From Propionibacteriaceae bacterium (GTDB lineage Bacteria > Actinomycetota > Actinomycetes > Propionibacteriales > Propionibacteriaceae): a stretch of DNA of 64,000 nucleotides. The notes beneath the pieces were generated by a model. That model was not told where the DNA came from and ran no database searches. It saw only the letters and a program-made list of their open reading frames with translations. The position numbers and the translations under genes were made by a program. Location: the NCBI GenBank assembly GCA_009780915.1, contig WQZD01000007.1, positions 1-64,000 on the forward strand, in the 5' to 3' direction. Numbering within the stretch: position 1 is the stretch's first letter; the number at the start of each line of letters is the position of its first letter. Shown here one piece after another: positions 2,728 to 40,998 of the stretch.

Positions 2728-2876
2728 TTAGCCACAGTAATCCTGGAAGTCCTTCACGTTTCGGGTGGCCACTACTGTGATCGTCACGTTTGAAGCATGA
2801 CCAGTCAGCCAGCGCATGACCTGTTCACCGGGCACAGGCTTAGAGCATCAGAGGCAACGTTAGCATCGAGGACCAT
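2728..2876 (-). pseudogene. fitB: Remnant of a FitB/VapC PIN-domain toxin
   Basis: The frame opens with ATG at 2876, overlapping the antitoxin stop as TGATG, and reads MVLDANVASDAL, the expected N-terminus of a PIN toxin with its first aspartate. It then breaks. After a frame change only a C-terminal piece remains, TITVVATRNVKDF followed by QDYCG and a stop (2728-2730), which resembles the ATRNxxDF end of FitB toxins. Most of the roughly 140-residue domain and its other acidic residues are missing, so no nuclease can be made. The antitoxin is intact. Confidence 0.7.
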
Positions 2877-3127
2877 CACAAGTCCCCGCCTGTCAGATCA
2901 GGGACCCTGGGCACCGACGCTCGCGACACATCAAGATCAACACCCCCAGTGGAGCGCCTGAATCGTTCAGCGGCTTGCAACAACGCACTCCCAAAGGGCA
3001 CTTCACAGTACACCTGGGACAGGGTCGCACGCACCTCCGCCTCCATGGAACGTCCATTGTGAGCCGCTTGCTCCCGGATTCGTTGGTACGTGGACTCATC
3101 CACCCCATGTATGGTCAAGACAGGCAT
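2876..3127 (-). CDS. fitA: FitA/VapB-type ribbon-helix-helix antitoxin
   Basis: This 83-residue protein starts MPVLTIHGVDESTYQRIREQ and continues with NGRSMEAEVRATL. This is the characteristic ribbon-helix-helix N-terminus of FitA-like antitoxins, which dimerise, bind their own operator and mask a PIN-domain RNase with their C-terminus. GAGAGGAG precedes the ATG. An 18-bp inverted repeat (3153-3170) upstream is a plausible operator. The toxin gene that overlaps its stop codon is degraded, so the antitoxin now has no cognate toxin here and may only autorepress. Confidence 0.8.
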   Translation of the reverse strand: MPVLTIHGVDESTYQRIREQAAHNGRSMEAEVRATLSQVYCEVPFGSALLQAAERFRRSTGGVDLDVSRASVPRVPDLTGGDL

Positions 3128-3152
3128 GGCACTCCTCTCTTTCTGTCTGCGA

Positions 3153-38432: not shown

Positions 38433-39029
38433 ATGAGGCTCATTCTCGCGTCCGCGTCCCCGGCCCGGCTGCAAACCCTCGCCTCAGCGGGGCTCAGCGT
38501 CGAGGTCCACGTGTCCGACGTCGACGAGACCCTGTTCGACGCCCCGACCCCCGCCGAGTTGGCCAGTCTGTTGGCTGAGAAGAAGGCCGAGGCGGTCTTC
38601 GAGGCCCTGGGACGCCCAGCAGAGTGCATCGTCATCGGATGCGACTCCATCTTGGACTTCGAGGGCAAACCCGTCGGCAAACCCGGCACCCCCGACGCGG
38701 CACGGGCCCTCCTGCGCCGCACACGCTCGAACTCGGGCGTGCTCGTGACCGGCCATCACGTCATCGTCTCCGACGGCGACGTCCAGCGGGTCACCCGACT
38801 GGGCAGCACCATCGTCCACATCGCTGACCTCACCGACGAGGAGATCGACGCCTACGTCGCCACCGGCGAGCCCGAGCACGTCGCCGGCGGCTTCACCATC
38901 GACGGCCTGGGCGGCGCCTTCATCTCGGCGATCGAAGGAGATCCCCACAACGTCGTCGGCCTGTCCCTGCCCCTGGTACGGATGATGCTCGCCGACTGCG
39001 GCGTGTCATGGACCACCCTGTGGTCCTGA
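38433..39029 (+). CDS. maf: Maf-type nucleoside triphosphate pyrophosphatase
   Basis: This 198-residue protein begins RLILASASPARLQTLASAGL, the Maf signature, and continues with ECIVIGCDSILDFEGKPVGK and GGFTIDGLGGAFISAIEGDP. The family removes modified or m7GTP/dTTP-type nucleotides. The start is placed at 38433, where the family motif begins; a TACCGT 8 bases upstream suggests a leaderless mRNA. It is followed by a hairpin inside a 61-bp repeat. Confidence 0.92.
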   Translation: MRLILASASPARLQTLASAGLSVEVHVSDVDETLFDAPTPAELASLLAEKKAEAVFEALGRPAECIVIGCDSILDFEGKPVGKPGTPDAARALLRRTRSNSGVLVTGHHVIVSDGDVQRVTRLGSTIVHIADLTDEEIDAYVATGEPEHVAGGFTIDGLGGAFISAIEGDPHNVVGLSLPLVRMMLADCGVSWTTLWS

Positions 39030-39030
39030 C

Positions 39031-39091
39031 GCCACAGGGCGTGATCCCCGGCCATGACGACCGGAAACCACGCCCTGGGAGCGATTCGACG
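39031..39091. repeat. 61-bp perfect direct repeat, copy 1, with terminator
   Basis: Identical over 61 bases to 39907-39967. Each copy contains a hairpin with CAGGGCGTG pairing with CACGCCCTG and an inner CCGG/CCGG stem. This copy starts 2 bases after maf and ends 12 bases from the stop of the convergent secreted-protein gene, so it can terminate both. Confidence 0.88.
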
Positions 39092-39102
39092 ACAGTACGA
39101 GT

Positions 39103-39564
39103 TCAGCCCTGCACAGTGAAGGTCCCGATCGGGTTGCCCTCCTCGTCCGTGGCGACCAGCGTGCGGGAGACATCCACTCCGGCCCGAACGGCGGCGTCCC
39201 GCTCCTGCATCATCTTCACGGCTTCCTCCGGATTGGCGGGCATGGGACCCTGGAGCTCAGAGGAGTATACGTATCCCTCCTGGCCATCATCCATAATCAC
39301 CCCAACCAAATCTGGCATCTTCCCATCTTGGATCTCAGCGACCAGGCCCGACCCATAGGTCAAACCCGCGCTGTTCGTCCTCACTTCAAGTGCCTCGGAT
39401 GGCAGACCTGTCTCTTCCGCCAGTTGCGCAACTGCTTGTTGTTGCGCGGAAGCCTGATCCCTGACCACAGGAGTCTCCGCGTGTGCGGTCAGCCCGGCGA
39501 CGCCCGCAACTGCCCCGACCGCGACGCCTACAGCAACACTTACAATACCCTTACCCTTGCCCAT
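39103..39564 (-). CDS. Secreted protein of unknown function
   Basis: This 153-residue protein starts MGKGKGIVSVAVGVAVGAVA and has a signal or anchor segment to about residue 28. The mature part has DQASAQQQAVAQLAEETGLP and a C-terminal VSRTLVATDEEGNPIGTFTV. A GGAG lies 8 bases before the ATG. It overlaps the end of a smaller secreted-protein gene by 14 bases, forming a two-gene unit inside a segment bounded by 61-bp direct repeats. No family was recognised. Confidence 0.6.
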   Translation of the reverse strand: MGKGKGIVSVAVGVAVGAVAGVAGLTAHAETPVVRDQASAQQQAVAQLAEETGLPSEALEVRTNSAGLTYGSGLVAEIQDGKMPDLVGVIMDDGQEGYVYSSELQGPMPANPEEAVKMMQERDAAVRAGVDVSRTLVATDEEGNPIGTFTVQG

Positions 39565-39769
39565 GATCGGCTCCATAGGGAGTTCCACTGGTGTCCACAA
39601 AGGAATTCCCTTGATAGGTGATCCCATTGAACGCGCCAAAGTTAGTCCAGCCCGAGTATGCGACAGCGAACGCCGCTGGAGCGATCCCGAAGGCCACCAC
39701 ACCGGCGACAAAGCCGACGATGGCATTTCTCACATAACCCTTCACCCCCATCATCCCCTTTCTTGCCAT
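39551..39769 (-). CDS. Small secreted peptide of unknown function
   Basis: This frame of up to 72 residues encodes a signal peptide (GYVRNAIVGFVAGVVAFGIA, cleavage after AFA) and a mature peptide of about 38 residues, rich in Gly, Tyr and Thr (YSGWTNFGAFNGITYQGNSF). The start is uncertain: ATG codons at 39769, 39754 and 39751 are possible, with GAAAGGGG best placed for the later ones. A TATAGT -10 lies at 39803-39808. The size and export suggest a signalling or bacteriocin-like peptide; this is inference. Confidence 0.55.
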   Translation of the reverse strand: MARKGMMGVKGYVRNAIVGFVAGVVAFGIAPAAFAVAYSGWTNFGAFNGITYQGNSFVDTSGTPYGADHGQG

Positions 39770-39802
39770 GTGATCACAATATGCAACTATGCATCTGAAA
39801 TC

Positions 39803-39808
39803 ACTATA
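39803..39808 (-). promoter_or_regulatory. Candidate promoter of the secreted-peptide pair
   Basis: TATAGT, preceded by TAC, lies 34 to 57 bases before the possible starts of the peptide gene in a markedly AT-rich stretch. No clear -35 box is seen. Confidence 0.35.
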
Positions 39809-39906
39809 GTAAATAATACCTCAATGCTACATACATGAAACACGGAATGCAAGAGCGTTTCATCTTTTCCACATCACGGTTTGAGCACCTACCACACCCC
39901 AAACAT

Positions 39907-39967
39907 GCCACAGGGCGTGATCCCCGGCCATGACGACCGGAAACCACGCCCTGGGAGCGATTCGACG
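39907..39967. repeat. 61-bp perfect direct repeat, copy 2, with terminator
   Basis: Second copy of 39031-39091. It begins 2 bases beyond the ilvC stop on the minus strand and serves as the ilvC terminator. Confidence 0.88.
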
Positions 39968-39969
39968 GA

Positions 39970-40998
39970 TCAGCGAGCGGCTGTGCCCTCGGTGTAGTCG
40001 GTGTCTTGGGTCCGCACCCAGCTCATGAGCTTGCGCAACTCACGGCCGACTCCCTCGATGGGGTGCTGCTCCTCCTTGGCCCGCAACGCCTTGAACTCAG
40101 GAGCGCCCGCGTCCTGGTCGGCGATGAAGCGCGCCGCGAAGGAGCCGTCGCGGATGTCGGACAGGACGGCGCGCATGGACGCCTTCACATGGTCGTCGAT
40201 CACGCGGGGCCCGGAGATGTAATCCCCGTACTCGGCGGTGTCGGACACGCTCCAGCGCTGCTTGGCGATGCCGCCCTCGTACATCAGGTCGACGATCAGC
40301 TTGACCTCGTGGAGGCACTCGAAGTACGCGACCTCGGGCTGGTACCCGGCCTCGACCAGGGTCTCCCAGCCGGCCTCGATCAGGTGGGACAACCCGCCGC
40401 ACAGCACAGCCTGCTCGCCGAAGAGATCCGTCTCGGTCTCCTCGGTGAAGGTGGTGGCGATGCCGCCGGCCCTCAGCCCGCCGATGCCCCTGGCGTACGC
40501 CAAGGCCAGCGGCCAGGCGTTGCCCGTCTCGTCCTTCTCGACGGCGACCACGACCGGCACGCCGCGCCCGGCGACGTACTCCCTGCGCACCAGGTGGCCG
40601 GGCCCCTTGGGGGCGACCATGCACACGTCCACGCCGGGAGGCGTCTGGATGTAGCCGTACCGGATGTTGAAGCCGTGCGCGAAGAAGACCGCGTCGCCAG
40701 GCTTCAGGTGCGGGGCGATCTCGGCGGCGTACAGCCCGCGCTGAACGGCGTCGGGCGCCAGGATCATGATGAGGTCGGCCTCTTCGCACGCGATCTCGGT
40801 GGGGACGACGCGAAGCCCTTCAGCCTCGGCCTTGTCGCGGGAGGAGGAGCCCGGACGCAGACCTACCCGGACGTCCACCCCCGAATCGCGCAGCGACAGC
40901 GCGTGTGCGTGGCCCTGCGAGCCGTAGCCGATCACGGCCACTTTCCGGTTCTGGATGACGGAAAGATCCGCGTCGTCCTCGTAGAACATTTTTGCCAT
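39970..40998 (-). CDS. ilvC: Ketol-acid reductoisomerase
   Basis: This 342-residue class I enzyme makes the dihydroxy acids of valine and isoleucine synthesis from acetolactate, using NADPH and Mg2+. It has [20 protein letters not shown] (Rossmann, about residues 19-38), [13 protein letters not shown] (about 130) and the Mg2+-binding [11 protein letters not shown] with Asp and Glu. It follows ilvN by 165 bases that contain two short GGGAG/CTCCC palindromes, and ends at the 61-bp repeat. Confidence 0.96.

Follow-up and report, generated by a model that had tools for sequence, protein, structure and literature searches.

At the junction between maf and ilvC, the window analysed here (a 64-kb stretch of a draft Propionibacteriaceae genome of 2.78 Mb in 45 contigs, 99.4% complete, which we call G000; other genomes carry similar numbers) contains an exact 61-nt direct repeat in two copies, 39031-39091 and 39907-39967, that are 100% identical and spaced 876 bp apart. 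The two identical copies, and the length of 815 bp between them (39092-39906), are as the original prediction had described them. The segment holds two genes for secreted proteins, A and B, and is bordered by the following features.

38433-39029, plus strand: maf, intact, the left host neighbour; an open reading frame with orthologues 73-81% identical beside ilvC in G006, G010, G016 and G018
39031-39091, no strand: copy 1 of the direct repeat, a duplicate of the spacer and its hairpin terminator, lying 3' of both maf and gene B; identical to copy 2
39092-39906, minus strand: inserted segment with the A-B operon; missing at the maf-ilvC junctions of four genomes of the same genus
39103-39564, minus strand: gene B, encoding a secreted protein of ~153 aa from a sporadic actinobacterial family; homologues in G011, G105 and G119, paralogue on contig G000:C22
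39551-39769, minus strand: gene A, a signal-peptide open reading frame of 72 aa (147-163 aa in the G011 homologue), delimited from the family alignment and by reading the junction directly
39770-39906, minus strand: AT-rich region of 137 bp upstream of the operon, presumed to be the promoter region
39907-39967, no strand: copy 2 of the direct repeat, a duplicated spacer with hairpin terminator, serving ilvC on the minus strand
39970-40998, minus strand: ilvC, intact, the right host neighbour; an open reading frame with orthologues in the genus 81-93% identical

The 61-nt unit begins 1 nt past the maf stop codon (TGA C/GCC..., with the slash marking the boundary) and finishes 2 nt short of that of ilvC (...ACG/GA TCA), so that each copy is essentially the entire maf-ilvC spacer. 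It is the sole direct repeat of at least 35 bp (within 8 kb) across the 64-kb window. When we searched the genome for the 61-mer, as had been proposed, with a 76-bp query, only these two copies were found, the next-best match being 80% identical over 41 bp (E 0.008). The unit folds into a long hairpin of -39.2 kcal/mol on the minus strand, the direction of ilvC (z -5.6), and of -27 on the plus strand, and it has no U tract. Copy 1 is predicted to terminate both maf and the A-B operon and copy 2 to terminate ilvC. With a terminator copy for each transcription unit, the insertion would be insulated and probably neutral for its neighbours. This gene gain, specific to the lineage, thus appears to have cost neither neighbour its transcription stop, because the stop signal was duplicated along with the insertion.

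The insert is AT-richer than its surroundings, as predicted (56.4% GC; the window has 64.3%, and maf and ilvC have 68.3%). However, its composition by itself is not striking, since 8.6% of equal-size windows in the 64 kb are equally AT-rich. The original prediction also gave the operon its own promoter. The 137 bp upstream of gene A have a GC content of 39%, but a consensus scan of this region found no promoter. Gene B was assigned a start at 39564, which agrees with its homologue; an alternative ATG lies at 39576. The G011 homologue of B is 42% identical over residues 8-156, and a B-like paralogue at G000:C22:1134-1757 has no gene A alongside. Relative to the G011 homologue, gene A lacks everything beyond '...DTSGTPYG', and the reading there runs into the start region of B. 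Approximately 240 bp of the gene appear to have been deleted, with loss of the C-terminal half, and gene A is therefore probably a pseudogene here. The prediction of two overlapping secreted-protein genes consequently holds for the two genes, but A is a shortened copy and the overlap with B arose through that loss. Neither gene matched Pfam, NCBIfam or PHROGs, and six homologues likewise matched no Pfam family. Predicted structures of B (from 2 sequences, pLDDT 43) and of a full-length A homologue (from a single sequence, pLDDT 31) were too poor for a fold search. An alignment of five sequences likewise proved too divergent to scan a collection with.

We then compared the neighbourhood of ilvC within the genus, where 18 genomes have this gene, the window genome among them. 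In four others, maf adjoins ilvC, and none of the four carries the insert: their spacers measure 91 bp in G018, 87 bp in G016, 218 bp in G006 and 14 bp in G010. A tree of IlvC groups the window genome with its nearest relatives, G016 and G018 (support 100/97), and the gene order ilvC-maf-birA-feoA-feoB is kept in both. Each has one strong hairpin in its spacer, which matches the window's in place and structure although it has diverged in sequence. These insert-free, single-hairpin junctions support the predicted insertion at the terminator, and the two-copy arrangement in all relatives that would have pointed to an old local duplication was not found in G006, G010, G016 or G018. Spacer sequence is strongly diverged between species whereas the window's two copies are identical, suggesting that the duplication is young or has been homogenised. 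Collectively, these comparisons show that the insert is a lineage-specific insertion and not an old shared duplication.

To what family do A and B belong? A profile built from five B proteins matched sporadically, in 30 of 393 genomes of the order, and a second B profile did so in 18 of 395 genomes of the class. Gene A precedes B in eleven further genomes, where it encodes a divergent secreted protein of 77 to 164 aa (mostly 115-164). The A+B operons are sporadic and lie in unrelated genomic contexts. Both A and B belong to sporadic actinobacterial families of secreted proteins that are absent from the family libraries searched. Actinobacterial plasmids carry B-domain proteins; no near homologue of the window's B was present in the plasmid or viral collections, and the phage collection gave a single weak partial match (E 3e-3). 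The hairpin core was on no viral contig searched. In the collection of genome contigs, the sole close match was a Propionibacteriaceae metagenome-assembled (MAG) contig, with the match positioned as in the G011 contig.

Twelve A-B loci were compared for flanking direct repeats at a cut-off score of at least 60: eleven plus G722, for which the flanks covered 1.5 kb only; the flanks of G011 and G105 end at contig ends. Three of the twelve are flanked by direct repeats of host sequence, which measure 61 bp here, 52 bp in G394 and 34 bp in G350, and nine have no flanking repeat. In the control, 600 random positions taken from non-repetitive stretches gave no such repeats, where the null is random positions rather than other accessory genes and repetitive stretches were excluded by hand. 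When those stretches were kept in, 26 of 587 positions passed; the ones listed were all in repetitive stretches. In G394, A and B lie between 52-bp repeats (47 of 52 positions identical) copied from the region upstream of marC and its first codons, and in its relatives G302 and G418, which lack the operon, the left gene is the same and is separated from marC by no more than ~100 bp. In G350, the two genes are bracketed by exact 34-bp copies of the rnpB 3' end (rnpB being the RNase P RNA gene; Rfam match). The repeats at the maf-ilvC, marC and rnpB loci are unrelated in sequence to one another. The terminator proposed as landing site did receive an insertion here but is not a general site for the cassette.

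Further features surround several of these loci. Just inside the rnpB-derived repeats of G350 is a second pair of ~37 bp (276-312 and 2497-2533; TACTGTGCCC..TGTGCCC..CGATTTTCACT). These are possibly recombinase arm sites or remnants of the end of an integrase gene; paired internal repeats of this kind were absent at five of the recombinase loci of G350. In G380, a tyrosine recombinase lies ~2.3 kb from A and B. The stretch directly upstream of A-B in that genome (5935-8890) is possibly a mobile module, with genes in a row for a tyrosine recombinase, a short HTH-like protein and a 501-aa zinc-ribbon-like protein. In G011, the A-B operon was not seen between repeats, its flank ending at the contig end, and the adjacent tricorn-like gene was: a degenerate direct repeat of ~105 bp (G011:C29, 1591-1695 and 5063-5171), copied from an aldo-keto reductase gene at its 3' end, flanks this tricorn-protease-like gene, which is thus a further accessory gene set between duplicated gene ends.

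We compared the insert with three known kinds of insertion. Like insertion sequences and transposons, it has a target duplication around foreign DNA. Target duplications of these elements are usually 2-15 bp, and the one here is far longer; moreover, the insert contains no transposase open reading frame and no inverted repeat at its ends, which were read directly. Like integrative elements bounded by attL and attR (actinomycete AICEs and islands at the 3' ends of tRNA, tmRNA or rnpB genes), it is flanked by identical direct repeats of a host site that relatives have in one copy. The likeness extends to other loci, with the repeat from the rnpB 3' end in G350 and the tyrosine recombinase near A-B in G380. 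Unlike such elements, the window segment has no gene for a recombinase or other element function (there is no recombinase open reading frame in 39092-39906), and its target is an unconserved terminator spacer. Like the microdiversity islets of Touzain et al. (2010), it is a short stretch of accessory DNA that sits at a conserved junction, is present in some related genomes and absent from others, is flanked by direct repeats and is free of known mobile-element genes. Such small variable segments are frequent in bacteria and mostly ascribed to illegitimate recombination, and 10-18% are flanked by direct repeats, mostly <30 bp (PMC2884548). The present case belongs to this kind and differs from most of it in that the exact repeat is unusually long, 61 bp spanning the whole intergenic terminator, and that the cargo, missing from family libraries, recurs in other repeat-flanked insertions.

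How did the repeats arise? The original prediction offered two causes, homologous recombination and an unknown element that duplicates its target. The former is not supported, as the genome has no further copy of the 61-mer and the sequences used by the other insertions are unrelated to it; the latter gains support from the independent marC and rnpB insertions between host-sequence repeats. We tentatively favor the idea that the segment is a horizontally acquired islet and that A-B is cargo of small integrative elements, put into the maf-ilvC spacer. According to this model, the two-gene operon would be accessory cargo of such elements in Propionibacteriales and would have integrated on the branch leading to the window genome. 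Integration would have duplicated the target, placing the 61-bp spacer with its terminator on either side as att-like repeats, such that maf, ilvC and the new operon each retained a terminator; gene A would have dropped its C-terminal half in later decay. The repeats would then stem from a recombinase rather than from errors of replication or repair, and A-B would be mobile now or have been so formerly. The sporadic A+B operons in unrelated contexts, the tyrosine recombinase near A-B in G380 and the B-domain proteins of actinobacterial plasmids also speak for this model. The 815-bp insert contains no recombinase, arm-type sites or terminal repeats, so the recombinase would have been provided in trans or lost. 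Five tyrosine-recombinase hits were found in G000, all on contigs other than the window's; these resident genes have no comparable flanking repeats, and their neighborhoods do not explain the 61-mer. Also against integration, a non-conserved spacer of 61 bp would make a long attachment core. The unrelated repeats of the three loci, the nine A-B loci lacking a flanking repeat and the viral contigs, none of which carries the hairpin core or a near homologue of B, weigh against it as well, and the control drew on random positions rather than other accessory genes. It is a possible but rather doubtful alternative that the insertion was a one-off illegitimate event, in which, in the course of replication or break repair, a fork passed through the spacer, moved over to a foreign A-B fragment, rejoined upstream of the spacer and recopied it, leaving the 61-bp repeat as a by-product and an immobile operon. 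Illegitimate recombination is considered to underlie a large part of the diversity in small variable segments among bacteria (PMC2884548), and the lack of a recombinase or element ends in the insert, together with repeats unrelated in sequence and length at the three loci, keeps this explanation alive. However, it does not predict the same operon family between repeats at three unrelated sites, and 61 bp exceeds the typical repeat length. Its end-joining version, by Ku-type joining of staggered ends, is unlikely given that no Ku gene was found in the 99.4% complete genome. That the same cargo is found again in other repeat-flanked insertions favors att-like integration over illegitimate insertion of the replication type.

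The remaining explanations fare less well. Integration by a single RecA crossover of a circle carrying a spacer copy beside A-B, for example one excised from a conspecific strain, would yield exactly the observed structure with perfect repeats, and 61 bp is longer than the threshold of ~30 bp given for RecA in E. coli (PMC2884548). Yet it merely shifts the question to the donor, the genome holds no other copy of the 61-mer, and the marC and rnpB loci would each need the same explanation separately; we consider it improbable. The draft state of the genome and the possibility that a 61-bp repeat is a graph junction raise the prospect of an assembly artefact. This is very improbable: both junctions demand that the reads contain spacer on either side of the insert, for which the linear order would be the simplest path through the graph, and similar structures are present in G394 and G350, both single-contig genomes. 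Least credible is that the terminator was duplicated locally long ago and that A-B is its ancestral neighbor. Two copies do exist, but the relatives with the maf-ilvC pair are insert-free, the hairpin-bearing ones have one hairpin, and the window's copies are identical despite the strong divergence of the spacer between species.

Integration of A-B as cargo could also take a more specific form, which we regard as unlikely: A-B operons would be mobile cassettes without a recombinase of their own, moved in trans into varied sites (bidirectional terminators, gene ends, rnpB) with target duplications of 34-61 bp, and here the duplicated terminator would insulate both the cassette and its neighbors. 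If the cassette is mobile in this way, it would provide a small test system for the spread of very small islets. The locus also reveals a two-gene family of actinobacterial secreted proteins that is found repeatedly in repeat-flanked insertions.

Finally, a 455-kb sample of the same genome, the window included, contained no other islet like the maf-ilvC insert. The remaining repeats in the sample lay in repetitive coding genes, short-unit arrays or one 211-bp duplication. The last is a tandem duplication of apparently non-coding DNA with hairpin-forming sequence (G000:C25:5001-25000, 2796-3143). An array on G000:C5 (138-880), with a period of ~64 bp and a conserved stretch of ~36 bp (CAAGTCTACAGGGGGAAATAGGAACTGATTCCCAGC), resembles a CRISPR array. 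Large genes with tandem repeat units of ~1140 bp on G000:C2 and of approximately 2787 bp on G000:C16 probably encode repetitive surface proteins.
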